From Altererythrobacter xiamenensis (GTDB lineage Bacteria; Pseudomonadota; Alphaproteobacteria; Sphingomonadales; Sphingomonadaceae): DNA of 64,000 nucleotides. The stretch covers positions 682,001 to 746,000 of the forward strand of contig NZ_FXWG01000003.1 of assembly GCF_900177715.1 (NCBI RefSeq), written 5' to 3'. A program made the translations under genes and the position numbers. The number at the start of each line of letters is the position of its first letter. Position 1 is the first letter of the stretch. The notes under the pieces were generated by a model. It saw only the letters and a program-made list of their open reading frames with translations. It searched no databases and was not told the origin of the DNA. This document shows positions 29,594 to 44,029 of this stretch, piece after piece.

Positions 29594-30027
29594 GACCGCA
29601 TTTGGTTACGTTGTTGCGCAGGACAAACGCAATATGGTTGCGAGGCGTAATACACGATGCTAGCAGGACAAACCGGTAACGAGTTTGCCCGTTTGCACAG
29701 TTTTTACTTGCTGCGGCTATTCCTACCGAAGCCTCGGGAAACAATTTCCCAGGGCCCCGTAACAGGTTGATGCAGTGACGCGACGTTCCTCCCCGCAATT
29801 CCAGCAGCAGCGCTTGTCGCGCGCGGCGGATTACGCGGGCCGGACGGCACAATGGATGTGCAGTCTCGCCCCTGCAGACACGAAGCTTTCCTCCCCGTCG
29901 TTAATCTTCGGGGATATCCTCACATCAAAATATGCCGCGGGCGCAACGCTCCCGCCAGGCAATCATATAGACGCGCCGCCCACTCGGGATGAAACTCCCT
30001 TGCGAAGCGGCGCCTGGAGACAATTAC
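29594..30027. other. intergenic region between amidase and rne, with a hairpin
   Basis: A 434-base gap with divergent promoters expected. On the plus strand a weak sigma-70-like pair is TTGCAC (29693-29698) and CTATTC (29717-29722), 18 bases apart. A 6-bp stem (29892-29897 with 29909-29914, loop 11) lies in what would be the rne leader. RNase E messages in other bacteria have long leaders with hairpins used for self-regulation. I see no convincing open reading frame here with a good ribosome site. Confidence 0.5.
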
Positions 30028-32712
30028 ATGGCAACGCGCATGCTAATCGACGCGCGCCACTCGGAAGAGACCCGGGTAGCGGTGCTCAAAGGCAACCGGA
30101 TCGACGAATTTGATTTCGAATCTGCTGAACACAAGCAGATCAAAGGAAATATCTACCTCGCCAAGGTAACCCGAGTAGAACCATCGCTGCAGGCGGCATT
30201 CGTCGATTTTGGCGGCAATCGCCACGGCTTCCTCGCCTTCAACGAAATCCACCCCGATTACTACCAGATCCCTCATGAGGATCGCGCAAGACTGCTCGCC
30301 GAAGAGGCAGAAGCGGCTGAAGAAGAAGCGCGTCTGCGCGCCGAAGAAGAAGATCGCGGCGAAATTCCCGGCGATGAATACGATGCCGATGATGAAGAAT
30401 CGGCCGAGGCGCTGGCAGAAGACCTCGCCGAGGACGGGGTCGAGGAAATCGACACCAGCGAGAAGGACAAGGTCGCAACCATCGAAGACGGACATGTCGA
30501 TGGGAATGGCGATGAAGATGATGACGACGAAGATGATGATGATTCTGACTCCTCGGACGATGACAACAATCAAGGTCGTGGCCGGCGTGGGCGCGGTCGC
30601 CGGCGCCAAGGCGCCAAGAACAAGGGCGGTCGTTCGCGCTCCAAGGAAGTCGACGAAGTCCGCGCAAAGCGCATGGCGCTGCGTCGCCGCTACAAGATTC
30701 AGGACGTTATTCAGCGCCGCCAGGTACTGCTCGTCCAGGTCGTGAAGGAAGAACGCGGCAACAAGGGTGCCGCGCTGACCACTTATCTCAGCCTCGCCGG
30801 GCGTTACACCGTGCTCATGCCGAACTCGTCGCATGGCGGCGGGATCAGTCGCAAGATCAACTCCGCCAGCGACCGCAAGCGGTTGAAGCAGGTCGTCTCC
30901 GACCTCAAGCTGCCCAAGACGATGGGCCTGATCGTTCGTACGGCGGGCCTCAGCCGCACCAAGACCGAGATCAAGCGCGATTTCGATTACCTTGCGCGGC
31001 TGTGGGACGAAATACGCGAGAAGACTCTGTCCTCCACCGCCCCTGCACTGATCCACTCGGACAGCGACCTGATCAAACGTGCGATCCGCGACATCTACAA
31101 TCGCGACATCGAGGAAGTCGTGGTCGAGGGTGAGGAAGGTTATAAGTCTGCCAAGCAGTTCATGAAGCTGCTGATGCCGAGCCATGCCCGAAGGGTGAAA
31201 GCCTATTCGGACCCGGTTCCGCTGTTCCAGCGGTATGGCGCGGAGGACCAGTTGCGGGCCATGTATGACCCGATGGTCCAGCTCAAATCGGGCGGCTATC
31301 TGATCATTAACCCGACCGAGGCGTTGGTTTCGATCGACATCAACTCCGGCCGTTCGACCAAGGAACACGGGATCGAGCAGACCGCGCTCCACACCAATCT
31401 CGAAGCAGCGCGAGAAATTGCACGCCAGCTGCGCCTGCGCGACATGGCGGGCCTCGTGGTGATCGACTTCATCGACATGGAATACAATTCCAACGTCCGG
31501 AAGGTCGAGCGCGCGATGAAGGACGCGCTCAAGACCGACCGCGCGCGGATCCAGGTCGGCCGCATTTCGGGCTTCGGCCTCATGGAAATGAGCCGCCAGC
31601 GTCTGCGCACGGGCGTGCTCGAAGCGACGACACGCGAATGTCCTCACTGCGACGGGACCGGTCTCGTCCGCACCGCCTCCTCGGCCGGACTTTCGGCCCT
31701 GCGTCTTATCGAGGACGAGGCGGCCAAGGGCAAAGGCACGATCATCAAGCTGGGTGCGAGCACCGAAGCGGCGATCTATCTGCTCAACGAAAAGCGCAAC
31801 GATCTCGTGGAGATCGAGCAGCGCTATGGCGTCACCGTGGAAGTATGCCCGGAAGGCGAAGACGAAGGCGCCAAGATGAGCGTTTCGAGTGCGGGGCCCC
31901 GCCCCTCCGAAGCGCCGAAGTTCGATCCGATTGTCGATGATGATGACGATGACGACATCCTCGACGACGAGGATGAGAATGAGACCGACGCCGACACAGA
32001 CAATGATGACGACGATGCACCGAAGAAGAAGCGTCGCCGCCGCCGTCGTGGCGGCCGAGGTCGCGGGAAGAAGCGCCAGGACGATCAATCGCAGGAAGGA
32101 GAGGACAACGACAGCAACCAGTCAACGGAGGACTCCGAGGAATCTCCCGGTGATGGTGATGACGATCAGCCGAAGAAAAAACGCCGCAGCCGCGGTGGAC
32201 GCCGCCGGAAGAAGAAAGACGACGGCGAAGCGGTGAGCAAGTCCGACGCCGAGAACCTCGAAGAGGTTTCGGAACAGGTGGTCGAGGACATGCCGGTCGT
32301 CGCCGGTCCCGATGACGCACCGGAAACCGCCGAAGAGATGGCTGAGGAGAAGCCGAAGAAGAAGCGCGCTCCCCGCAAGAAAAAGGCTGACGCGACTTCG
32401 GAAGCCGATGCCGATGCCGATGCCGATGCGGATAAAACTGCGGAGGAAAAGCCGAAGAAAAAGCGCGCGCCGCGGAAAAAGAAATCCGATGATGCGACCG
32501 ACGAGGTCGCCAAGCAGGATGCGGCAGCACCATCTGAAGAGCCAAAGCCGAAGCGCAAATCGCCGGCCAAGTCGAAACCCAAGGAATCTCCCGCGGAAGA
32601 AACCAAAGCAGCGGAAGCATCCAACGACGACGGTTCAGGCGACGCATCCCCCACGACAGCGGATGACGGCAAACCACGCCGCGGTTGGTGGCAGCGTACG
32701 TTTGGTGAGTAA
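30028..32712 (+). CDS. rne: ribonuclease E/G
   Basis: Endoribonuclease of the degradosome, 894 residues from the ATG at 30028 (ribosome site ggaga). The N-terminal S1 domain has a large insertion (about residues 90-215) that is first very acidic and then basic. The catalytic region contains RTAGLSRTKTEIK and the Mg site near VSIDINSGRSTKEH, with Asp in VVIDFIDM. The zinc-link is ECPHCDGTG. The C-terminal half (from about residue 625) is low-complexity with alternating acidic and Lys/Arg-rich blocks, including two copies of a 14-residue EEKPKKKRAPRKKK motif. These are probably RNA- or partner-binding scaffolds. The neighbourhood does not include degradosome partners. Confidence 0.97.
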   Translation: MATRMLIDARHSEETRVAVLKGNRIDEFDFESAEHKQIKGNIYLAKVTRVEPSLQAAFVDFGGNRHGFLAFNEIHPDYYQIPHEDRARLLAEEAEAAEEEARLRAEEEDRGEIPGDEYDADDEESAEALAEDLAEDGVEEIDTSEKDKVATIEDGHVDGNGDEDDDDEDDDDSDSSDDDNNQGRGRRGRGRRRQGAKNKGGRSRSKEVDEVRAKRMALRRRYKIQDVIQRRQVLLVQVVKEERGNKGAALTTYLSLAGRYTVLMPNSSHGGGISRKINSASDRKRLKQVVSDLKLPKTMGLIVRTAGLSRTKTEIKRDFDYLARLWDEIREKTLSSTAPALIHSDSDLIKRAIRDIYNRDIEEVVVEGEEGYKSAKQFMKLLMPSHARRVKAYSDPVPLFQRYGAEDQLRAMYDPMVQLKSGGYLIINPTEALVSIDINSGRSTKEHGIEQTALHTNLEAAREIARQLRLRDMAGLVVIDFIDMEYNSNVRKVERAMKDALKTDRARIQVGRISGFGLMEMSRQRLRTGVLEATTRECPHCDGTGLVRTASSAGLSALRLIEDEAAKGKGTIIKLGASTEAAIYLLNEKRNDLVEIEQRYGVTVEVCPEGEDEGAKMSVSSAGPRPSEAPKFDPIVDDDDDDDILDDEDENETDADTDNDDDDAPKKKRRRRRRGGRGRGKKRQDDQSQEGEDNDSNQSTEDSEESPGDGDDDQPKKKRRSRGGRRRKKKDDGEAVSKSDAENLEEVSEQVVEDMPVVAGPDDAPETAEEMAEEKPKKKRAPRKKKADATSEADADADADADKTAEEKPKKKRAPRKKKSDDATDEVAKQDAAAPSEEPKPKRKSPAKSKPKESPAEETKAAEASNDDGSGDASPTTADDGKPRRGWWQRTFGE
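32344..32484 (+). repeat. repeats in the RNase E tail
   Basis: Within rne, two 42-base copies (32344-32385 and 32443-32484) encode the same 14 residues (EEKPKKKRAPRKKK) but differ at synonymous positions. Between them five GCNGAT units (32404-32433) encode an Asp-Ala run. The silent differences show that the protein motif is being kept by selection. Confidence 0.8.
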
Positions 32713-32755
32713 TGCGCCGGTTATGTGAGTCGATGGCGCGCGGCGCAGTGTGGCT

Positions 32756-33391
32756 TCAGGCCCCTGCTCTGCGCGCCACACCCCACTCGTTCCAACTGGC
32801 AAACCTGGGCGCCTTCGGGAGATAGCCCTGCCCCAGCGGTTCCACATCGAAACCCGCGCTGCGAAGCGCGGCCCCGATCGGACGCGTCAGGTGGCAGCCG
32901 CCAGCCATGCGCTTCCAGATCGGCTCGATCCGATCCTGCCATTTTGCAACATCGGTGTCGGGTGCACGCCCGTGCTCGAGAAAGAGGAGCTTTCCACCCG
33001 GCTTCAAAATGCGGCGCATTTCCTTCATTACCCTCGCCGGGTCTTCCACCGAGCACAGCGTAAAAGTGCACACAACCGTGTCGAAGCGGCTGTCGGCAAA
33101 GGGAATATCCTCCCCTGCTCCCTGCTTGATGTCGGCACGCAGCCCCTTGGCGCGGGCGCGTTCGCGTGCGGCATCGAGCAACCCGCCATGCGGATCGATA
33201 CCGGAAAAGCTGGAAACCAGACTGGTCTGGTAAAATTGCTGATTGAGTCCGCCGCCACAGCCAAGCTCGAAAACATCGCCTGAAGCCAGCGGCACCAATT
33301 GCGAGCGCCGCTTCATGATCTGACCCTGACTACAAGCCATGGTGACCAGTTTCGGCATCACATGCGCGTCATACCAACTCTGTAATCCCAT
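32756..33391 (-). CDS. class I SAM-dependent methyltransferase
   Basis: A 211-residue cytoplasmic methyltransferase. Motif I is VFELGCGGGLNQQFYQT, the acidic SAM ligand is in GIDPHG, motif IV is DTVVCTFTLCSVED, and the post motif is LKPGGKLLFLEHG, all typical of the UbiE/Erg6 superfamily. The family acts on small molecules or lipids, and the substrate cannot be read here. It follows the PLP enzyme gene by 74 bases on the same strand and is convergent with rne. Confidence 0.85.
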   Translation of the reverse strand: MGLQSWYDAHVMPKLVTMACSQGQIMKRRSQLVPLASGDVFELGCGGGLNQQFYQTSLVSSFSGIDPHGGLLDAARERARAKGLRADIKQGAGEDIPFADSRFDTVVCTFTLCSVEDPARVMKEMRRILKPGGKLLFLEHGRAPDTDVAKWQDRIEPIWKRMAGGCHLTRPIGAALRSAGFDVEPLGQGYLPKAPRFASWNEWGVARRAGA

Positions 33392-33465
33392 CGGGCATCC
33401 TCTGCCAGATCAACCATCCTGCAACTTTCTAGCGCGAAAATGCCCTCTGGGAACGCCAAAAAGGA

Positions 33466-34938
33466 TCAGGGTCGGTAAGAGCTGATCGCTTTGGCGATCT
33501 GAGCCATGTCCGTTGAAAGCCGGTCGGCAAGCGCATCATCGTCAAGCATGGCGAAACTCGCGAACTGTGGCATCGACATACCGATACGCAATGTGCCGCC
33601 CCATTCGCCATCCTTGCGTACACTTTTGACCGGTTGACCCAGACGCAGGCCACTCAAAGCCAACTCGCGGTGGCACTTTTGTGCATCGGCAAAGGTCGCA
33701 AGGCCTGGCAGGCTGCTGACATCCACCGTCGCCAGGGTTTGCATTTCTATCGGGTGTTCGGCGGGCTCGCCAATCTCACCGGCCGCATGCGGTGCCACCA
33801 GCGACAGGCCGAGCGGTGCGAGGATCTGATCCTCGAGCGCTTGCGAGAACGCCGCGATGATCCGTTCGATCTGCGCCAAGGGCAGCTTCTGAAATCGCTC
33901 GAGCTCGAAAACGGAGGCTTCGTAGCGAAGCGCAAGCGAGATGTTCTCGCTATCGTTCAGGCTCTCGCAGCCAGCCCAGTGCGCCGGAAACTCCGCTCTC
34001 CGGAAAATGCGCGCAAATCCCTCAGGTAGCTTAGCCGCGTTTTGTACCGCCTCCCTGCGCATCAGGGCAAAGCCGTTGAACGGAGGGCCGCCCATGAACT
34101 TCGATCCGGTCAGGAATACTATGGCATCGCGATCGAGATAGTCATGCAAGGCTTCTGTCGTGATCCGTGCCTGGCAGGCATCGATCACGAAGGTCGTATT
34201 ATCGGAATAGCGCTGTTGCAGAGCATCCATCTGCACGATGTCAGGCAAAATCAGTCCGGTCTTGGAGCCATGCACGACATGGATGAGCGCATGCCTTCCC
34301 GCCATTTGCGCGATCGTGATTTCCTGCTCGATCGCCTGCGCAATCTGTACACTCGATCTGGCGAGCCCGTAGCCGCAACGCACCGGGACATCGGCAAGGC
34401 TGATCGAGGCGAAACCTTCGACTTCCTGTCCCACCTCGCTTGCGAGGCCCAGCGCGGTCTCGCTGGCGAAATAGCAACCGTGGGCCGAATGGATGCAGCC
34501 GCTACCGACCTCGTCCGCACCCAAAAGGATATTGTGCACGCCGCCCGATGCTTTTTCCTGCACTGCGGCAAGCGCTACATATTCGAGATCGGTTCCGGAT
34601 GGCGCGAATACCACCTCAATGTCGGAGCCGAGTCGATAAGCTGCACGGATTCGCGCGCGTATCTGTTCGAGCCAAGCAGAATATTCTGGAAAACCCTCTG
34701 CCTGCATCGCCAAGAGATGCGCAAAGGCGTCAGGCGACAAGTCGTTGGCGGTCGACGATGCATATGCCAGCGTCTTGCGCGGATAAGGCGCTGAGAAATA
34801 ACGGTTGAGCCCCGACACCGGATCGAGCGTGATGCGTGCATCCCCACCGCATGAGAGAGCCTCGATCAGCTCAACCGCCTCGACAGATGCATCGACACTC
34901 CCCGCTAAATCGGGGAATATTGCGATTCTGGTGCTCAT
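33466..34938 (-). CDS. PLP-dependent fold-type-I enzyme of unknown substrate
   Basis: A 490-residue protein that I can place in the aspartate aminotransferase fold but not in a named family. The Schiff-base lysine is probably Lys280 (LTGSKFMGGPPFNG), the Asp that binds the pyridine nitrogen is Asp253 (IDACQAR), and the phosphate loop is at Ser114-Gly115-Thr116. The early segment RYFSAPYPRKTLAYASSTANDLSP is unusual. It could be a lyase, decarboxylase or aminotransferase. The start at 34938 was chosen because a longer frame has no ribosome site. Divergent from the ATP-grasp gene across only 56 bases, which suggests shared regulation. Confidence 0.8.
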   Translation of the reverse strand: MSTRIAIFPDLAGSVDASVEAVELIEALSCGGDARITLDPVSGLNRYFSAPYPRKTLAYASSTANDLSPDAFAHLLAMQAEGFPEYSAWLEQIRARIRAAYRLGSDIEVVFAPSGTDLEYVALAAVQEKASGGVHNILLGADEVGSGCIHSAHGCYFASETALGLASEVGQEVEGFASISLADVPVRCGYGLARSSVQIAQAIEQEITIAQMAGRHALIHVVHGSKTGLILPDIVQMDALQQRYSDNTTFVIDACQARITTEALHDYLDRDAIVFLTGSKFMGGPPFNGFALMRREAVQNAAKLPEGFARIFRRAEFPAHWAGCESLNDSENISLALRYEASVFELERFQKLPLAQIERIIAAFSQALEDQILAPLGLSLVAPHAAGEIGEPAEHPIEMQTLATVDVSSLPGLATFADAQKCHRELALSGLRLGQPVKSVRKDGEWGGTLRIGMSMPQFASFAMLDDDALADRLSTDMAQIAKAISSYRP

Positions 34939-34994
34939 TACGTCTCGTTTCTCTTGGCGACCTTCGCGCGCCGCTTTATGGGCCTGCGCCAATT

Positions 34995-36023
34995 ATGGAA
35001 AGGCCCAACCTCGTGCAATTCACCCATTCGCCCCTGGTGCTCGACGAAGCGACCAAGCGCGACACCCACATCCTGTTTATCGCAAAGAACGCGCTGTGGG
35101 ACGGCACGGGCAGCCCTGAAGACGGCAATCACGCCAAATACCATCGCGAAATGCGCCAGGTGCTGGAGGGGCTCGGCCTGAACCTCACCATCGGCAACCG
35201 GTTCGAACATCTGCTCGAAGATCCGAATTTCGATTTCGTCTTCCCGCTCCTCAATCGCGCCGGCTTCTTCAATTCGGAGATGTTCGGCCCCCTGCTGTGC
35301 GAACGCGCGGGCATTCCCTATCTCGGCGCAAGTCCGATCCTGCGCGGCCTGTCGGACGATAAACACCTCGCCAAGCATATGGTGCGCGAGGCCGGGGTGC
35401 CGACGGCCCCTTGGGCAATATACCGCAAGGGCGCGCCGATCGATCCGGCGAAGTGCCCGCAGGGCGAGCGCTACGTGGTCAAGCCAAACGCATCCTCAGC
35501 CAGTTGGGGCGTCAACGATGCGACTGATTGGGACAGCGTTCTCGAAGCGGTGAACAGCGTCCATGCGCTCGGTCACGATGCATTGGTCGAGCCCTTCATC
35601 GATGGCAGCGATGTCGAGGTTCCGGTCGTCACCATCAATGGCGAACCCATGATCCTTCCGATGATGATCTTCCGCCAGGCCGATCCGTCGCACCTGCGGA
35701 CATACCAGGAGAAGCGCGACCTGGTGGACCGCAGCCAGAAATACTCGCTCGACCCGTTCGAGAACGAGGACATGATCGCGACCATTGCCGAATACACGCG
35801 CAAGGCGATGCAGGAGTATCGCCCGTTCGATTACGGTCGCTTCGAGTTCCGGGTCAACGAAGAGACCGGCGAGGTGACCTTCCTCGAGCTCAATCTGAAC
35901 TGCAATCTGTGGTCGGAAAAGGTCTTCGGTCGTGCCGCTAAACTGGCTGGCTGGACGCAAGATCAGTTGATCGAGACGATCCTCGCCGAGAGCCTGCGCC
36001 GCAACGGCCTGACGAAGGGCTAG
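34995..36023 (+). CDS. ATP-grasp ligase, D-Ala-D-Ala-ligase-like
   Basis: A 342-residue ATP-grasp protein. The ATP-binding lysine region is YVVKPNASSASWGVNDA, a second ATP-site acid is in DALVEPFIDGSDVEVPVV, and the metal site is FLELNLNCNLW (acidic residue and Asn). The N-terminal half, with VFPLLNRAGFFNSEMFGPLL and IPYLGASPILRGLSDDKHLAK, follows the D-alanine-D-alanine ligase layout. It is not obviously the housekeeping Ddl, because there is no mur or fts neighbour and the substrate region differs. It probably joins an amino acid or small carboxylate to an amine. It ends in a 4-base convergent overlap with the receiver gene. Confidence 0.85.
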   Translation: MERPNLVQFTHSPLVLDEATKRDTHILFIAKNALWDGTGSPEDGNHAKYHREMRQVLEGLGLNLTIGNRFEHLLEDPNFDFVFPLLNRAGFFNSEMFGPLLCERAGIPYLGASPILRGLSDDKHLAKHMVREAGVPTAPWAIYRKGAPIDPAKCPQGERYVVKPNASSASWGVNDATDWDSVLEAVNSVHALGHDALVEPFIDGSDVEVPVVTINGEPMILPMMIFRQADPSHLRTYQEKRDLVDRSQKYSLDPFENEDMIATIAEYTRKAMQEYRPFDYGRFEFRVNEETGEVTFLELNLNCNLWSEKVFGRAAKLAGWTQDQLIETILAESLRRNGLTKG

Positions 36024-36394
36024 TGGGTCTCGACCGGCGGTTTCGTCGAACCGAGAAGTGTTAGCAGCGCTGCGATAACGTCATCGGCAGGGCGCGGCTT
36101 GGCTATCACGGGAGCATCGATAGCACGAAGCGACTCGCCGACCCTATCGAGGTCGCCCGTGTGCAGGATGAACGGGATTTTCCGTTCCGACAGGCAATCT
36201 GCCGTCTTCCTGCAGGTTTCCCCGCCGCCAAGGCTCACATCGAGGATAGCACCTTCGATGTTCGATTGTTCGATGCATGAAATTGCTTCGGAATTGTCGA
36301 TGGTCGTTACAGCGGCATAGCCTGCGTCTTCGAAAGCCATCTTGAGATCCATCGCGATCAATGGCTCGTCTTCGAGAATTAGAAATGTCTGCAT
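36020..36394 (-). CDS. single-domain response regulator (LovR-like)
   Basis: A stand-alone receiver of 124 residues with no output domain. The acidic pocket is Glu8-Asp9 (LILEDEP), the phosphoacceptor is Asp52 (AILDVSL), the switch Thr is Thr79 (FILHTG), and the lysine is Lys99 (IAKPRP). The P-F-x-x-x-T-G stretch resembles the FATGUY class of receivers that work with HWE kinases. It follows the LOV kinase by 8 bases on the same strand. Known Erythrobacter LOV kinases have a partner receiver called LovR that acts as a phosphate sink; this gene fits that role by position and form. Confidence 0.9.
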   Translation of the reverse strand: MQTFLILEDEPLIAMDLKMAFEDAGYAAVTTIDNSEAISCIEQSNIEGAILDVSLGGGETCRKTADCLSERKIPFILHTGDLDRVGESLRAIDAPVIAKPRPADDVIAALLTLLGSTKPPVETH

Positions 36395-36402
36395 TAGGTG
36401 GC

Positions 36403-37482
36403 CTATCTACTGCCGATCGGCACGGTAATTACCGCGCGCAATCCGGCCGGATTCCATTCTCGCTCCAAGGTGCCTCGCGAATGGGACAAGAGGGTATCGG
36501 CAATGTCGAAACCTGTACCACCGGGATCCGGCTCGCCCTTGATCGGCGGTCCGCCATTCTCAACCCATTCGATCTCCAGTGAATTGCGATCGAATTTGTC
36601 TTTGCGGTGGACCCAGGAAACTTCGACCACCCCGTTTTCATTGGACAGCGCGCCGTATTTGGTAGCGTTGGCCGCAAGCTCGTGCAGGGCCAATCCGATC
36701 GCCGAGATAGCGTTTGGCTCTGTACGTACGCCATTGCCGTTGAACTTTATGCGATCGCCTTCCGGATCGTAGGGTGCGAGCACAGCGCGAATCGCCTGGC
36801 CGACCTGGATCGTCCCGAGCACGGCATCATCAAGCGTCGGCTCGTAAGAACGCCCCAGCGCCTGGACCCGGTCGTTGATCTTGTTGGCAACGTTTTTCGC
36901 ATCCATCGAGCGGCCGGTGATGTTCACGATGCCGCCGATAACGGCGAAGACGTTTTTCATGCGGTGCGAAATTTCACGTGCCAGCGCCTTCGCATGGCGT
37001 TCCTCTGCACGGGATTGGTGAATGTCGGTGACGTCCCATTGGCTACCGAAGAAGTAAGTGAGGTTGCCTTCTGCATCATAAATCGGGCCGAGGTGAAGCG
37101 TGTTCCAGAAGCTGGAACCGTCTTTCCGATAATTCAGAATTTCGACCACGACGACGTCTTCCTCCTGGATCGCCTCGCGGATCTTGGTGACTTGTCGTTG
37201 GTCGGTATCCGGACCCTGCAGGAAGCGGCAGTTTCGACCGATGATTTCTTCGCGGCGATACCCGGTGAGTTGCTCGAACGCCTCGTTGCAGAAGATGATG
37301 GGGTCGTCAGGCAGCCGTGGATCCGTCAGACAGACCGCCATGCGCGTCTGCGCCATGGCCTGCTCGAAAAGCAGACCACTCGCGCCTTCGAAGCCCATTC
37401 TCGTGCCCTGATTGGGGTGTATGGGACGATGGGCCTGGCCCGATCCTCTCAGACCACCCCTGCTGTCGTCGCTGCTACTCAT
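36403..37482 (-). CDS. blue-light LOV-domain histidine kinase (HWE class)
   Basis: Soluble sensor kinase of 359 residues with no membrane segment. Residues 36-150 form a LOV/PAS domain with the flavin-adduct motif GRNCRFLQG, Cys85. The H-box is EISHRMKN with phosphoacceptor His173. The N-box HELAANATKYG has Asn272, the HWE signature pair Trp306/Glu308 lies in IEWVENGG, and the G-box is GGTGF (321-325). The size and layout match the LOV kinases EL346, EL362 and EL368 of Erythrobacter litoralis, known from structural work. The ATG at 37482 has a ribosome site (aggaaa); the frame extends upstream but includes the promoter region. An adjacent receiver follows. Confidence 0.95.
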   Translation of the reverse strand: MSSSDDSRGGLRGSGQAHRPIHPNQGTRMGFEGASGLLFEQAMAQTRMAVCLTDPRLPDDPIIFCNEAFEQLTGYRREEIIGRNCRFLQGPDTDQRQVTKIREAIQEEDVVVVEILNYRKDGSSFWNTLHLGPIYDAEGNLTYFFGSQWDVTDIHQSRAEERHAKALAREISHRMKNVFAVIGGIVNITGRSMDAKNVANKINDRVQALGRSYEPTLDDAVLGTIQVGQAIRAVLAPYDPEGDRIKFNGNGVRTEPNAISAIGLALHELAANATKYGALSNENGVVEVSWVHRKDKFDRNSLEIEWVENGGPPIKGEPDPGGTGFDIADTLLSHSRGTLEREWNPAGLRAVITVPIGSR

Positions 37483-37525
37483 CGAACTCTGTTTCCTGAC
37501 CGACCCTTTTTTTGGACCTTCACAA

Positions 37526-37551
37526 AACGCCCAATTCGCAATCTGGGTCCC
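37526..37551 (-). promoter_or_regulatory. candidate EcfG (general stress) promoter
   Basis: On the minus strand GGGAC, 17 bases, then CGTT, one mismatch from the known alphaproteobacterial EcfG consensus GGAAC-N16/17-CGTT. It would place transcription start roughly 35-40 bases before the LOV kinase ATG. HWE kinases often feed the PhyR-NepR-EcfG cascade, so feedback is plausible. Short motif, so only moderate support. Confidence 0.45.
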
Positions 37552-37587
37552 GGGATTTCCAAAAATCACTCCTTCAGGGCGTCCGCG

Positions 37588-37620
37588 AAAAAAGGTCACT
37601 TGGGCGAGCCAAGCGACCTT
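37588..37620 (-). terminator. intrinsic terminator of the SDR gene
   Basis: A 12-bp stem on the minus strand (one G-T wobble, 37592-37603 with 37609-37620) with a 5-base loop, continuing into a T-rich run. It lies about 50 bases after the stop of the short-chain dehydrogenase and separates it from the LOV kinase. Confidence 0.8.
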
Positions 37621-37670
37621 AGATTATTTTCGATTACGGCCACATCGGGACAATAAAAATGTGCGAACGC

Positions 37671-38426
37671 TCAGGCGGGAATTTCCTCGCCTTTCCAATC
37701 GAAGCACTTGCCGCTGTCTGTCGGGGTCAAGGCTGAAATAACATCGAGCAAATGGTTGGCAGACCGTTCGGGCGTGAAGAGCTGGCTTTCGGGGACGTTG
37801 CCCTGAAATGGCTCCGAGAGCCGCGTGTCTACGGTCCCCGGATGGAGACCCACCACTGTGGCTTGCTCATGGGTACGGCCCAACTCGATCGCATAGTTGC
37901 GGATGAGCATATTCAGCGCCGCCTTCGAGGCGCGATAGCTATGCCAACCGCCAAGACGGTTGTCGGAGATCGAACCGACGCGGGCGGAGAGAGCTGCAAA
38001 AACACTGCGTCGGTTGCGCGGGAAAAGCGGTAGCATGTGCTTTGCGACCAGCGCAGGTCCGACCGTGTTGAGCATGAGCGTGCGAGCCATGACCTCAGGC
38101 TCGATCTGCTTGAAGCTCTTTTCCGGCCCGCTGCCGTCGTCCAGCGTCAGAACGCCAGTCGCCACGATCACCAGAGCTGGAGGGTTCTCACCCATGCCCT
38201 CTACGGCATCGGCGATGCTGGCGGGATCATCATAATCGAAGCGGAAAGGAATGATCCCATCGCTTTCCAGCGCAGCCCCGCTACGCGATCCGGCATGGAT
38301 TTTCGACACGCCGCCGGCGGCCAGCCCTTCGACCAGTGCTTTGCCAATGCCGCCGCTTGCCCCGAAGACCGCCGCGCAGCTGAAATCCTGTCCTATATCG
38401 CCCATCACCGGTAGAGCGCCGGACAT
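37671..38426 (-). CDS. short-chain dehydrogenase/reductase (C-factor-like)
   Basis: NAD(P)-dependent SDR of 251 residues. The cofactor loop is VFGASGGIGKAL, and catalytic residues are Ser in AALSARVGS and Tyr/Lys in WHSYRASKAAL. The pattern HPGTVDTRLSEPF is typical of the C-factor group. The usual NNAG motif is replaced by VATGVLTLD. The substrate is unknown. I used the ATG at 38426 rather than the TTG two codons upstream. Its terminator is at 37588-37620. Divergent from sdhB. Confidence 0.9.
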   Translation of the reverse strand: MSGALPVMGDIGQDFSCAAVFGASGGIGKALVEGLAAGGVSKIHAGSRSGAALESDGIIPFRFDYDDPASIADAVEGMGENPPALVIVATGVLTLDDGSGPEKSFKQIEPEVMARTLMLNTVGPALVAKHMLPLFPRNRRSVFAALSARVGSISDNRLGGWHSYRASKAALNMLIRNYAIELGRTHEQATVVGLHPGTVDTRLSEPFQGNVPESQLFTPERSANHLLDVISALTPTDSGKCFDWKGEEIPA

Positions 38427-38627
38427 GGCCAACAGGTTCCCGCTCGCTCTTTCCTTGCCGCGCTTCGCATATGCTCCTCATTTCTTTTGCCAGAACTGCG
38501 TTCCATGTGTTCCATCCAGTAGGACTTGTGTTGCACAATTGGCCACAAACACACGCTTTCCCGCCCTTGTGCCATGCGGCGAAATCGTTAGATAGGCACC
38601 AGCAATTTACCCGGGAAACCAAGCGAT

Positions 38628-39410
38628 ATGGCCACTTTCACCCTCCCCAAGAACTCGAAGATCACGGGCAAGACCCGCGAGCATAGGGCGGAAGGCGCTG
38701 GCCGCATAAAGAAGTTCAAGATCTATCGCTTTGATCCCGACAGCGGAGAGAATCCGCGGTACGACACGTTCGAGCTCGACCTCGATAATTGCGGGCCGAT
38801 GGTTCTCGACGCACTGTTCAAGATCAAGAACGAAGTCGATCCGACGCTGACCTTCCGTCGTTCTTGCCGCGAGGGGATCTGCGGATCCTGCGCGATGAAC
38901 ATGAACGGCAAGAACGGTCTCGCCTGCACCACGGCGATCGAAGATCTAAAGGGCGAGATTCGCATCACGCCGCTTCCGCATATGGACGTGATCAAGGATC
39001 TCGTGCCCGACTTCACGCATTTCTACGCGCAATACGCCTCGATCCGTCCCTGGCTGCAGACCGTCAGCCCGACGCCGAGCGGCAAGGAACGGCTGCAGTC
39101 GCCCGAACAGCGCGAGAAGCTCGACGGGCTGTATGAGTGCATCCTGTGCGCCTGCTGCTCGACCAGTTGCCCGAGCTATTGGTGGAATAGCGACAAGTTT
39201 CTTGGCCCGGCGATCCTGCTTCAGGCCTATCGCTGGCTGGCCGACAGCCGCGACGAAATGACCGGCGAACGGCTCGACCAGCTGGAAGACCCCTTCCGCC
39301 TCTATCGTTGCCACACGATCATGAACTGCGCGAATGTCTGCCCGAAGGGTCTCTCGCCCGCCAAGGCGATCGCCGAGACGAAGAAGATGATGGCCGAGCG
39401 TCAGATCTGA
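38628..39410 (+). CDS. sdhB: succinate dehydrogenase iron-sulfur subunit
   Basis: Electron-transfer subunit of complex II, 260 residues. [2Fe-2S]: Cys80, Cys85, Cys88, Cys100. [4Fe-4S]: Cys171, Cys174, Cys177 with Cys238. [3Fe-4S]: Cys181, Cys228, Cys234. The [13 protein letters not shown] stretch is typical. sdhB usually follows sdhC, sdhD and sdhA, but here the upstream gene is a divergent SDR, so sdhB has its own promoter. A possible pair TTGTGC and GATAGG, 18 bases apart, lies upstream of the ATG. The thioesterase and zapE genes follow. Confidence 0.97.
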
Positions 39411-39417
39411 TCCCTTG

Positions 39418-39885
39418 ATGGCGCTGAAAGACGACGTATTCGAGCACGGGCCCGATCCGGACAACCCCGGCTGGAATCACTGGAACCTGAAGGACGACAC
39501 GCTGTTTAATGGCGCGGTGATGGGTAAGCTCATCACCCGGCGTGAAGGTGACAAGTGTCGCTTGCGGATGTTCCCGGAACGCAAGCATGAGAACCTTCAG
39601 GGCATCATTCATGGCGCGATCTCGCTCGCGTTGATCGACATATCGCTCTTCACGACCATGCATGTGGTCGGGAGCGGTAATGCCGGACCTTCTGTCACGC
39701 TGGAGCTTTCGACGCAGTTCATCGGCGGGGGTGACCCGAAGAAGCCGCTCGATGCGGTGACCGAGATCACGCGCGAGACCGGCAAGCTCGTGTTCGTGCG
39801 CGGCGAAGTGGTGCAGGAAGACGAAACGATCTGCGCCTACAGCGGCATCATCCGCAAGTTTCCGCCGCGCCCGCTCAACGCATGA
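39418..39885 (+). CDS. PaaI-type hotdog-fold thioesterase
   Basis: A 155-residue single hotdog domain that hydrolyses acyl-CoA thioesters in the family. The active-site helix begins ENLQGIIHGAISLALIDIS, with the catalytic acid and the HGG-like turn. The second half has LELSTQFIGGGDPKKPLD and RGEVVQEDETIC. The substrate is not defined. It starts 7 bases after sdhB (ATG at 39418) and overlaps zapE by four bases (ATGA), so all three are probably co-transcribed. Confidence 0.85.
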   Translation: MALKDDVFEHGPDPDNPGWNHWNLKDDTLFNGAVMGKLITRREGDKCRLRMFPERKHENLQGIIHGAISLALIDISLFTTMHVVGSGNAGPSVTLELSTQFIGGGDPKKPLDAVTEITRETGKLVFVRGEVVQEDETICAYSGIIRKFPPRPLNA

Positions 39886-40994
39886 GCGGAGTGCTGGCCC
39901 GCTACGAGCGGCTGGTCGAAGCCGGTGAGCTACGGCCCGATCCCGACCAGCGCAAAGCGGCCGAACGTCTCAACCAGCTGCAGAAAGAACTGGAAGCCGA
40001 AACATCGGGAGGGCTTCTCTCGCAGCTCTTCGCGCGCAAGCAATCGAACCCGCGCGGGGTCTACATGTGGGGCGGCGTCGGTCGCGGCAAATCGATGCTA
40101 ATGGACCTGTTCGTCGAGACCTTGGGGATCGACGAGAAGCGGCGCGTCCATTTTCACGAATTCATGCTCGAGGTGGACCAGCGCATGCGCGCCTGGCGCG
40201 AAGCCGATCCGGGCGATCCCATCGCCAAGACGGCGCGCGACATTGCAGAGGGCGTCCGCTGCCTCGCCTTTGACGAGATGGTTGTCACCAATACGGCCGA
40301 CGCAGCGATCATGGCGCGGCTTTTCACCGCACTCATGGTCGATCATTCGGTGACCGTGGTCACCACCAGCAACCGGCCACCGAAGGACCTCTACAAGGAC
40401 GGTCTCAATCGCTCGCTATTCCTGCCATTCATCGATCTGGTCGAAGCCGAACTCGACGTCCTCGCGCTCGATGGGCCGGTTGACTACAGGCTCGACCGGT
40501 TGGGTGATATCGAAAGCTGGCACACCCCGCTCGGTGATGCGGCAACCCGGCAGGTGCGCGAAGCGTTCTTCCGTCTGACCGACTACAAGCCCGAGGACGC
40601 CGACCATGTGCCGAGCGGGGAATTGGAGCTAGGCGGGGGACGAACGCTCTTCGTGCCCAAGAGCCTCAAAGGCGTGGCAGTCTTCAGCTTCAAGCGCCTC
40701 TGCGGTCAGAACCGGGGATCGTCCGACTACCTCGCGATCGCCCGCAGCTATCACACCGTGATCCTCGTAGGCATCCCGCAGATGGGCCCCGACATGCGCA
40801 ATGAAGCAATCCGCTTTACCAAGCTGATCGATGCGCTCTACGAGATGAAGGTCAAGCTTTTCGCGACCGCCGATGCCGAGCCCGAAGAGCTGTATCAGGC
40901 GGGCGACGGAAGTTTCGAGTTCGAACGCACCGCAAGCCGCCTCAGGGAAATGCAGAGCGACGAGTACATGGCGCGCGGCCACGGCGCGGGTTAA
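39882..40994 (+). CDS. zapE: cell division ATPase ZapE (AFG1-like)
   Basis: AAA-like P-loop ATPase of 370 residues. Walker A is WGGVGRGKSMLM, and Walker B is CLAFDEMVVT. The sensor region TTSNRPPKDLYKDGLNR is conserved in the AFG1/ZapE family. In E. coli it modulates the Z-ring; in mitochondria the homologue aids respiratory complex turnover. A gene order sdhB-zapE occurs in other alphaproteobacteria to my knowledge, so a link to complex II is conceivable. The start overlaps the thioesterase stop. Confidence 0.93.
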   Translation: MSGVLARYERLVEAGELRPDPDQRKAAERLNQLQKELEAETSGGLLSQLFARKQSNPRGVYMWGGVGRGKSMLMDLFVETLGIDEKRRVHFHEFMLEVDQRMRAWREADPGDPIAKTARDIAEGVRCLAFDEMVVTNTADAAIMARLFTALMVDHSVTVVTTSNRPPKDLYKDGLNRSLFLPFIDLVEAELDVLALDGPVDYRLDRLGDIESWHTPLGDAATRQVREAFFRLTDYKPEDADHVPSGELELGGGRTLFVPKSLKGVAVFSFKRLCGQNRGSSDYLAIARSYHTVILVGIPQMGPDMRNEAIRFTKLIDALYEMKVKLFATADAEPEELYQAGDGSFEFERTASRLREMQSDEYMARGHGAG

Positions 40995-41009
40995 CTGGCC
41001 GCAAGCGCT

Positions 41010-41933
41010 TCAGGCAGCAGCCATTCTCTCGGCCAGGCGCGCCTGGGCGGAAACAAGACGGTTCATCACCTTGAGATCCTGCTCACGCAGTTGCAGCGCG
41101 GTATCGGCCCACAGTTCCGTGATGCGATTGAGTTCTTCCAGTTCCAGCCCCCAGACATGCTTCATCGCCTTGCGCGAGCCGACCAGGCCGGCATGGCGGC
41201 GCTCGGATTTCTTGATGAAGTCGCGGCAGGCATTCACACCGTCGCCAGGTTCGGCGAGATGGTGAACGATGCCGAGGTCGTACATTTGTTCGGCGGTGAA
41301 GGTCTCGTTCGACACGATCAGACGATCAGCCATCGCGCTGCCGATCTTCCGCGAAAGCAGAGCATGTGCCCCCATCCCCGGGAAAAGACCGAACATCACT
41401 TCAGGCAATCCGAAAGTCGCAGTGCGTTCGGCGACGATGTAATCGAACGAAAGCAGCGCTTCGAAGCCGCCACCGAGCGCCGCGCCCTGCACCAGACCGA
41501 TGGTCAGCATCGGAATGCCGAGCGTGTTGATGTTGCGATGGAGAATAGCGCAGCACCGATGGCCGTACTCGACCAGCGAATCGCGATCGCCCTTGCGAAT
41601 GAGGGACTGGAACAAGTCCAGATCGCCGCCGAAACAGAACACATCCTGCGCCCTGCTGCCCAGGACGAGGTACCGCAAGGGCACACCACCCTCTCCGAAG
41701 CCTTGCGTTATGATGCTCTGCCAGCTTTCGAAATCGTGCAGCATGGACGGCGTAAAGCTCGGCCGGCCTTCCGGATTCATGAAAGTCCACAAGGTATTCG
41801 AAGCGTCCTCGTACAGGACGTCGAGCTCCTTGAGCTGAAATAGTTCTGCCGGAATTGTCGCGTGCAGCGCACTTTCCGCGAAGATTTCTTCCTCGCTCGA
41901 CAAGGGAATGGCTCTGCTTACCGCACCATCCAT
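41010..41933 (-). CDS. rpfF: RpfF-like crotonase (candidate DSF synthase)
   Basis: Crotonase-fold protein of 307 residues. The oxyanion-hole stretches are VFCFGGDLDLFQSLIRKGDR and VQGAALGGGFEALLS. Glu158 and Glu178 are 20 residues apart, the same spacing as the two catalytic glutamates (141 and 161) of Xanthomonas RpfF, and FGLPEVMFGLFPGMGAH and TAEQMYDLGIVHHL also match. RpfF makes cis-2 fatty-acid signals (DSF). Typical enoyl-CoA hydratases are shorter and lack LRYLVLGS. No RpfC or RpfG is in the window. It ends 15 bases from zapE (convergent), upstream of an AT-rich gap. Confidence 0.82.
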   Translation of the reverse strand: MDGAVSRAIPLSSEEEIFAESALHATIPAELFQLKELDVLYEDASNTLWTFMNPEGRPSFTPSMLHDFESWQSIITQGFGEGGVPLRYLVLGSRAQDVFCFGGDLDLFQSLIRKGDRDSLVEYGHRCCAILHRNINTLGIPMLTIGLVQGAALGGGFEALLSFDYIVAERTATFGLPEVMFGLFPGMGAHALLSRKIGSAMADRLIVSNETFTAEQMYDLGIVHHLAEPGDGVNACRDFIKKSERRHAGLVGSRKAMKHVWGLELEELNRITELWADTALQLREQDLKVMNRLVSAQARLAERMAAA

Positions 41934-42130
41934 TACTAGCGCCCCCAGGTCACTGAACCGGCTAGCTGATTACTAGTCAGGGTCAGAAAATCTCAAAAAC
42001 CAATTCCCGCTGAACCGAATCTTGGCCTTCAGGCGCTTGCTTTGCAAATATAATTTTACATTTTAACGATAGCCGAGTCCCTGATCGGGACATCGCAGGG
42101 CCCTGTTGTGGCTAATCTACCACAGGCCAT

Positions 42131-44029
42131 TCATTCACTGATTGCGAGACCCGACAGGGATTTTTCGAGCATGATCAATTGCCACAAGGTTCTGGAATTG
42201 TCCTGCTTTCCGGCAATATGCGCCTCGGCCAGATCGCTTATCCGGCGCGCGTCGAACCAGCCGGTTTGCGCCACCATTTCGCTTTTCGCGATGGCACGGG
42301 CACTATTTGCGAGCGGCCCGCGCAACCATTGCGCGATTGGCGTAACAAAGCCCTGTTTCGGTCGATAGAGTATGTCGTCGGGCAGATATCGCTCCATGCT
42401 CTTCTTGAGCAGATACTTGCCTGTGCTTCTCCTCACCCGCATCCGGTCGGGCAGGCTCGCCGCGAACTCGATCAAGCGATGGTCGAGCAGCGGTTCGCGT
42501 GCTTCGAGGCTGACGGCCATGCTCGTGCGATCGACCTTGGTCAGGATATCTCCGGGCAGCCAGAACATGAGATCGGCATATTGCGCACGGTCCAAGCCGC
42601 TGCGAGCTGGCGCTTCGCGCATTAGCCGGGTCAGGGCATCCTCCGCGCGATAGTTCCCGAGCACATGGCGCGCGCGATCACCATACAGGCGCTGACGCTG
42701 CGGAGCGGTGAGCACCGAAAGTCCCCGCGCGTACCCCTCCTCGCCGCTTTCCGCGAGTGCGAGCAGGGTTGCCTTGGCTCGCAATGACCGCGGCGCCCAG
42801 TCCGCCTTGGGCCAAGCGCGCCCAAGCGTACCGAAGATTGAACTGCGCAATCCGGGGGGCATGAGCGCTCTCGCCCGCTCCTCATGCGCATGGAAGACCT
42901 GCCGGCGATACCCGGCAAAGGCCTCGTCCGCCCCGTCGCCCGACAAGGCCACGGTGACGTTTTCGCGCGCAAGCTGGCATACACGCCAAGTCGGCAAGGC
43001 AGAGGCATCGGCGAAGGGTTCATCGAACATCGCCGCAATCCGGTCGATCTCGGCGAAGTCATCCTGCCCGACCGTGCGGCTGCGATGCTCCGTCGCATAG
43101 CGCTGCGCGATGGTCTCGGCATAGGATGTCTCGTCTACCGAGGCGACGTCGAAACCGATCGAGCATGTCTTTACCGGTGAGTTGCTCGCTTCGCTCATCA
43201 GCGCCACGACCGAAGAGGAATCGACCCCGCCCGATAGAAACGCGCCGAGCGGAACATCGGCGACCATCCGGCTTCTCACCGCTTCGCGCAGCAAGTGGAC
43301 CAGTTCCGCCGACAGGTCAGCTTCGGAACCCTTGCGGCGCTCGGCAAAGCTGACGTCCCACCAACGCCTCGGTTCGCTCACGCGCTTGCCCTGCTCGAGC
43401 AGCATGAAATGGCCGGCGGGAAGCTTGTGCACCCCTTCGAGGATGGAGCGCGTATCGGGGACATAGCCCCAGGCGAGGAAGTCATCGACGGCCGCGAGAT
43501 CGACGCGGCGGCGTAATAGCGGGTGGGCCAGCAACCCCTTTAGCTCGGAGGCGAAGGCGATGCTGCCATCGCTCAGCCGCGTGTAGAACAGCGGCTTCAC
43601 GCCTAGCCTGTCGCGGGCGAGGAACAGCGTGCGCTTCTCTGTATCCCAGATGGCGAAGGCGAACATTCCGTCGAGCCGCGAAAGGCAATTGACACCCCAG
43701 CGCTGCCACGCGGCGAGGATCACCTCGCTGTCGCCATCGGTTTTGAAGCGCGCGCCCTCACGCTCGAGCTCGCGGCGCAGCTCTCGGAAGTTATAGATCT
43801 CGCCGTTGAAGCTGAGCACTGCGCGCCCGTCTGCCGAGTGCATCGGCTGGGGCGATCCTGCGAGGTCGATGATCGACAGGCGGCGATGGCCGAGGCCTAT
43901 ACCCGGCGCTGTCCAGACGCCTGAACCATCGGGGCCGCGATGGACCATGGCATCGCACATGCGCTCGACCCGGACGGGATCGACCGGCTTCACCGTCTCA
44001 GGATGGAATATTCCCGCAATCCCGCACAT
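42131..44029 (-). CDS. asnB: XrtA system-associated amidotransferase (asparagine synthetase type)
   Basis: A 632-residue asparagine-synthetase-like protein. The N-terminal glutaminase has Cys2 (MCGIAGIF) and HRGPDGSG. The synthetase domain has SGGVDSSS (ATP pyrophosphatase loop) and SGDGADEAFAGY. Homologues in XrtA loci are thought to modify a polysaccharide or peptide by amidation rather than to supply asparagine. It begins 9 bases after the exosortase gene and is the last gene of the minus operon. No intrinsic terminator with a T-run was seen downstream. Confidence 0.9.
   Translation of the reverse strand: MCGIAGIFHPETVKPVDPVRVERMCDAMVHRGPDGSGVWTAPGIGLGHRRLSIIDLAGSPQPMHSADGRAVLSFNGEIYNFRELRRELEREGARFKTDGDSEVILAAWQRWGVNCLSRLDGMFAFAIWDTEKRTLFLARDRLGVKPLFYTRLSDGSIAFASELKGLLAHPLLRRRVDLAAVDDFLAWGYVPDTRSILEGVHKLPAGHFMLLEQGKRVSEPRRWWDVSFAERRKGSEADLSAELVHLLREAVRSRMVADVPLGAFLSGGVDSSSVVALMSEASNSPVKTCSIGFDVASVDETSYAETIAQRYATEHRSRTVGQDDFAEIDRIAAMFDEPFADASALPTWRVCQLARENVTVALSGDGADEAFAGYRRQVFHAHEERARALMPPGLRSSIFGTLGRAWPKADWAPRSLRAKATLLALAESGEEGYARGLSVLTAPQRQRLYGDRARHVLGNYRAEDALTRLMREAPARSGLDRAQYADLMFWLPGDILTKVDRTSMAVSLEAREPLLDHRLIEFAASLPDRMRVRRSTGKYLLKKSMERYLPDDILYRPKQGFVTPIAQWLRGPLANSARAIAKSEMVAQTGWFDARRISDLAEAHIAGKQDNSRTLWQLIMLEKSLSGLAISE

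Follow-up and report, generated by a model that had tools for sequence, protein, structure and literature searches.

How does blue light reach the general stress response of an alphaproteobacterium, and does it switch that response on or hold it back? The window, i.e. the whole stretch of 64,000 nt analysed here, offers a natural case in the marine bacterium Altererythrobacter xiamenensis, in whose genome one LOV kinase was found as opposed to the three of Erythrobacter litoralis. A sequence-only reading of the window had proposed that a LOV-HWE kinase and a partner receiver convey light to the stress response, with feedback. Much of this proposal stood, namely the LOV-HWE kinase, a LovR, the genes nepR, phyR and ecfG, and EcfG-type sites upstream of the operon in many relatives; a direct signal from the kinase to PhyR did not, as the orthologous kinase EL362 reportedly transfers its phosphate to LovR alone (PMC4438053, in its available part) and no second LOV protein was found in the genome. 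The kinase-receiver pair falls within a known family that is linked to the general stress response; we infer both the sink role of LovR and the sign of the light effect.

Table 1. Features of the kinase-receiver operon, in positions of the window.
Feature	Position	Strand	Basis and remarks
Candidate EcfG promoter	37526..37551	-	GGGAC-N17-CGTT, or GGACC-N16-CGTT one base on; 43 bases lie between its end and the kinase ATG
LOV-HWE histidine kinase	36403..37482	-	359 aa plus stop; assigned as EL362 ortholog
LOV domain, about residues 40-153	37024..37365	-	Pfam PAS_9 58-153 (2.2e-22), PAS 40-147; PDB LOV matches
Cys85 codon of the kinase	37230-37228	-	
HWE phosphotransfer helix region, residues 170-250, phospho-acceptor His173	36733..36975	-	Pfam HWE_HK and alignment
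LovR, receiver-only, 124 aa, expected phospho-acceptor Asp52	36020..36394	-	2msw match, key residues

The ATG that we adopted for the kinase agrees with the numbering of the earlier reading and aligns with the starts of 6 relatives. By its sequence the protein is a predicted LOV photoreceptor, carrying the adduct-cysteine motif GRNCRFLQG with Cys85, and an HWE kinase, with a Pfam HWE_HK score of 42.8 bits (cut-off 22.8) and with His173, Asn272, Trp306 and Glu308. All these residues are at the positions first given for them and are conserved in an alignment of 84 LOV kinases. Precisely, Cys85, Gln148, His173, Asn177, Asn272, Trp306 and Glu308 are identical in the window kinase, in EL362 and in 52 of the 53 LovR-linked relatives listed, the exception being the Blastomonas marina kinase, which has M272 and D308. 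The partner receiver begins 8 bases after the kinase stop (36395-36402), as had been noted, and its description as a LovR-type protein was borne out by the ORF positions, by the phmmer match to PDB 2msw (4e-31; SdrG 5ieb, 4e-17) and by the receiver residues E8, D9, D52, T79 and K99, all present. It is a single receiver near EL_LovR, with the phospho-acceptor Asp and without an output domain, and it scores 27.5 bits against Pfam Response_reg, under the cut-off of 30.2. No Rfam match was found in 30000-44000 at gathering cut-offs.

Aligned with the three E. litoralis LOV kinases, as the same reading had advised, the window kinase is nearest to EL362 (71% identity over 328 residues, same clade), as against 45% for EL368 and 33% for EL346; in the phosphotransfer helix, over 51 residues, it is 78% identical to EL362 and 22% to EL368. 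Orthology to EL346 or EL368 is ruled out by identity and tree. A receiver 100% identical to 2msw over 118 aa was found in one genome, G305. We take 2msw to be EL_LovR and G305 to be E. litoralis HTCC2594, two assignments that agree with each other. Possible starts of the LOV kinases of G305 give exactly 362, 368 and 346 aa, as in the published names, and its 362-aa kinase directly precedes LovR, with GGAAC-N16-GGTT upstream; EL362 and lovR are reported as one operon (PMC4438053, in part). On this sequence evidence, the window pair is the ortholog of EL362 and EL_LovR.

The wider family was obtained by scanning named genomes with two LOV-domain peptides and examining the best 80 of 492 relatives, a search in which LOV-less and distant operons are under-counted. 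In 53 of these 80 loci LovR adjoins the LOV kinase, directly downstream. The linkage holds in 52 of 52 loci of the same best 80 at a kinase identity of at least 49%, and at 44% identity it is present in L070 and absent from L078 and L079. The other 27 of the best 80 (kinase 32-44%) include 22 with no receiver match and 5 with weak ones; the weak adjoining matches of L093, L094, L095, L097 and L098 ('other' in the tree), at 25-45 bits, were excluded from the LovR count. LovR starts are uncertain in L063, L067, L068 and L082 (75-112 bits). In the tree of 84 kinases, the 53 LovR-linked kinases listed, the window kinase and EL362 lie on one side of a branch (100/98), and EL362 and the window share a 16-row subclade (100/100), the nearest kin of the window kinase among the best 80 relatives being Erythrobacter sp. 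SD-21 and Qipengyuania xiamenensis (100/99). EL368 is in a neighbouring group and EL346 is far off on a long branch; five other rows have long branches too. Seven of the 53 LovR-linked kinases listed belong to Roseobacteraceae or Paracoccaceae and not to Sphingomonadales (L045, L047, L061, L063, L067, L068, L082), hinting at spread between orders.

Seven genes that neighbour the operon in the window (32756-40994) were looked for around 17 related loci (L019-L030, L136, L054, L042, L070 and L073), the 12 nearest among those listed included, and none turned up in their flanks. In 16 of the 17, LovR is nevertheless next to the kinase; the two genes seem to travel together. Acquisition by horizontal transfer was considered and dropped, as it is not needed: Qipengyuania copies resemble the window kinase more than that of Erythrobacter rubeus does, and a marker, the zapE-like gene at 39882-40994, gives the same affinity (78-80% in 5 genomes of the Qipengyuania and SD-21 side, 74% in E. 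rubeus, 69-72% in the other 6 of 12).

We also searched the genome for the stress pathway. One locus (L099) groups nepR and phyR with an ecfG-like sigma gene and a CHASE-HWE kinase gene, and GGAAC-N16-CGTT precedes both nepR and phyR, so that the three genes whose presence the sequence-only reading had thought worth checking were all recovered, in one cluster. The genome has 8 HWE matches, the window kinase among them. When it was searched with the window's LOV domain, no second LOV protein was found, the next match (24%, 1.3e-4) being a weak one to a PAS domain without the cysteine motif; with SdrG as query, no free SdrG/MrrA-type hub was found. Just upstream of phyR there is a 141-aa receiver-only protein (L099, 7741-8166, minus strand; contig G000:C4), the best PDB matches of which include PhyR receivers. 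Two further genes are on contig G000:C5, both on the plus strand: a bacteriophytochrome-HWE kinase with a C-terminal receiver containing LATGYG (L103, 3222-5996), which is a candidate red-light input to the same stress pathway, and a 1488-codon frame with CheB, CheR, PAS, GAF and HWE kinase domains (L104, 1141-5604), in which similarity to SdrG revealed a receiver-like stretch containing FVTGYG.

The promoter motif upstream of the kinase reads as had been stated, one base from the EcfG consensus, and the second register of the same bases (Table 1) was absent from the earlier reading. In either register the site is one base off GGAAC-N16/17-C/GGTT, and this single site is weak evidence alone. 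For the family, we searched up to 400 nt before the fixed codon in 55 loci and compared the counts with shuffled sequences. Perfect GGAAC-N16/17-C/GGTT sites are upstream in 25 of the 55 loci (other strand 1; shuffle mean 0.49, maximum 3), and GGACC sites in 5 (other strand 1; shuffle mean 0.45, maximum 4). These comprise the window, SD-21 and Q. xiamenensis, where GGACC-N16-CGTT is 179-183 nt before the fixed codon, and two further loci. Neither kind was present in 25 of the 55 loci, including the remaining five of the window's 8-row subclade. EcfG control is thus supported for the family by the perfect sites upstream of the aligned operons.

Counts in the 3.08-Mb genome were rejected as a means of judging the promoter, as neither GGRAC-N16-18-CGTT (97, against 235 for the reversed pattern) nor the GGACC pattern (33, against 46) is in excess over its reversed form; for this reason, we tested the position of the sites relative to genes. 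A promoter-like position was occupied by 26/49 GGAAC sites, 14/33 GGACC-N16/17-CGTT sites and 44/1500 random positions, and by 1/25 GGACC sites with wrong spacing (against 14/33; one-sided Fisher 0.0007). Strand-flipped sites still counted as promoter-like in 14/49 and 5/33 cases for GGAAC and GGACC, respectively (p 0.012 and 0.014), which means that intergenic location alone accounts for part of the excess. Gene starts in this test came from a codon-usage script trained on the window, which puts the window kinase start 127 nt after the site and not at the 37482 ATG. An identical 26-base GGAAC...CGTT site is at the ends of two contigs (G000:C3:844120-844145 and G000:C5:1077129-1077154), probably one repeated element at assembly breaks. 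As regards departures from the consensus, the literature points both ways. Only 3 of 79 -35 boxes in Sphingopyxis break the AAC triplet (PMC7083833). A lacZ assay in Sphingomonas melonis, on the other hand, showed EcfG dependence for the region upstream of glgX, which contains GGGACC...CGTT, although its motif score is low and the authors class glgX as a putative indirect target (PMC6599016).

For the window operon, we consider EcfG control probable, through a promoter of lower strength. The alternative, that EcfG does not act at this site in the present strain and that the operon is constitutive or otherwise controlled, we regard as rather unlikely. It would accord with the one-base departure, with the genome counts, with the five subclade members devoid of a site and with Brucella lovhk, reported not to be under the stress sigma factor (PMC4438053, in part); against it, GGACC-N16-CGTT is kept at the same distance in both sister genomes, GGACC sites prefer promoter-like positions over those with wrong spacing, and no sigma-70-like site was found in 35900-37800.

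With somewhat more than even confidence, we propose that the operon, the ortholog of EL362-lovR, serves the general stress response as a feedback module of the LovK-LovR kind and works in five steps. Under stress, phosphorylated PhyR would free EcfG from NepR, by an established pathway whose genes are present here. EcfG would raise transcription of the operon from the off-consensus site. Blue light would form the flavin-Cys85 adduct and alter kinase activity, as the motif and the studied relatives suggest. The kinase would then pass its phosphate to Asp52 of LovR and not to PhyR, in line with the reported behaviour of EL362. Finally, LovR would shed phosphate and drain the kinases that feed PhyR, so that the response is damped and light sets its strength, as for Caulobacter LovKR. 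By analogy, the module more likely damps or tunes the stress response than switches it on.

The sequence-only reading had called LovR the reported phosphate sink for Erythrobacter LOV kinases, which is loose, since a sink is proposed for Brucella LovR (PMC4438053, in part) and in-vitro support is for Caulobacter LovK/LovR, where the pair draws on MrrA and starves PhyK-PhyR (PMC5964349, in part). The latter report regards lovKR as probable negative feedback because it is SigT-controlled. In E. litoralis, PhyR is reported to lose phosphate faster with LovR present (PMC4438053). By analogy with Caulobacter and Brucella, the window LovR would be a phosphate sink too. A light-dependent brake would explain the seemingly dark-activated stress response of E. 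litoralis DSM 8509, which is partly under a LOV kinase, not named in the available part of the report (PMC12148442). On the other side, the absence of a detectable SdrG/MrrA-type hub for the sink to drain counts against the model, as do the one-base departure of the upstream site, the 25 of 55 loci with neither kind of site, the Brucella lovR deletion, reported to have barely altered the stress regulon (PMC4438053), and the control of attachment by Caulobacter LovKR through a separate route (PMC6530869).

The model first suggested, in which the kinase under blue light phosphorylates PhyR directly and LovR merely trims the signal, seems to us unlikely, although PhyR is present, no LOV protein other than the window kinase was found, and phosphorylation of PhyR, besides that of LovR, is reported for both EL368 and EL346 (PMC4438053, in part). 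These two kinases are, however, outside the LovR-linked clade and far off, respectively, and it is the ortholog, EL362, for which LovR is the sole target in the available account. In favour of direct input, that assay may have lacked NepR, reported as a strong aid to PhyR phosphorylation in other species. Alternatively, LovR could act as a hub of the SdrG/MrrA type, relaying phosphate from several kinases to one that phosphorylates PhyR, which would make the operon positive in the stress pathway. LovR is the best SdrG match of the genome (45%, 7.5e-17), no free SdrG/MrrA was seen and a CHASE-HWE kinase adjoins phyR. A FATGUY-type motif marks SdrG/MrrA hub receivers, but LovR has ILHTGD where SdrG has FATGG, and LATGYG and FVTGYG sit in fused receivers of two hybrid kinases. 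As LovR is, moreover, far closer to EL_LovR, and Caulobacter LovR is reported as a sink (PMC5964349), a hub is quite improbable here.

A further locus suits a feedback role independent of light. Among 15 genomes with LovR, 13 have a LOV kinase, one was left out (G069) and one, of the same genus, is LOV-less (G021): here a 229-aa HWE kinase without a LOV domain (L018, 2178-1492, minus strand) is followed by LovR and preceded by a perfect GGAAC-N16-CGTT. An S41-peptidase-like gene (named by eye) adjoins L018 and also five of six LOV-bearing loci read from the genus, which suggests that L018 is the corresponding locus after loss of its LOV portion. We advance, tentatively and as more doubtful than not, that EL362-type operons are a distinct stress-induced brake, in which the kinase-LovR sink is essential and the LOV domain an optional light dial; in this genome the sole LOV photoreceptor would feed only the brake, from an EcfG promoter weakened, in the window and near relatives, by a GGACC -35. 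If so, blue light reaches the stress response solely via how hard the brake is pressed.

Thanks to the LOV-less operon and to the EcfG-type sites found in many relatives, the feedback role is testable without light. The one LOV kinase found here is of a type that reportedly leaves PhyR alone; should blue light alter the stress regulon of this strain through this kinase, LovR would be the likely route. By title and abstract opening, we found no literature on EL362-type operons across Erythrobacteraceae or on their promoters; key older papers are outside that search, and absence from print is not claimed.

Among known systems, EL362/EL_LovR of E. litoralis HTCC2594 resembles the window pair in gene order, clade and an EcfG-type site upstream, with LovR 51% identical; it differs in its two further LOV kinases and in its site, GGAAC-N16-GGTT as against GGACC-N16-CGTT. 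EL346 and EL368 are soluble LOV-HWE/HisKA2 kinases, like that of the window, but are reported orphans acting on both LovR and PhyR (PMC4438053, in part), and EL346 has V and D at the positions of W306 and E308. Brucella LOVHK (PDB 6ph4 match, 1e-60) is likewise a LOV-HWE kinase with a LovR partner, whereas the genes of the Brucella system (LOVHK, LovR and PhyR) are spread over different chromosomes and the kinase is reported to reach PhyR (PMC4438053). The LovK-LovR pair of Caulobacter crescentus, compared by description, is also a LOV-HWE kinase and a receiver-only partner in one operon, reported to be controlled by the stress sigma factor and to act as a phosphate sink (PMC5964349), two properties that the window pair would share; the LOV kinase of Caulobacter zeae (38%) is outside the LovR-linked clade, with no LovR match in its flanks, and Caulobacter has the MrrA hub, of which no counterpart was found in the window's genome.
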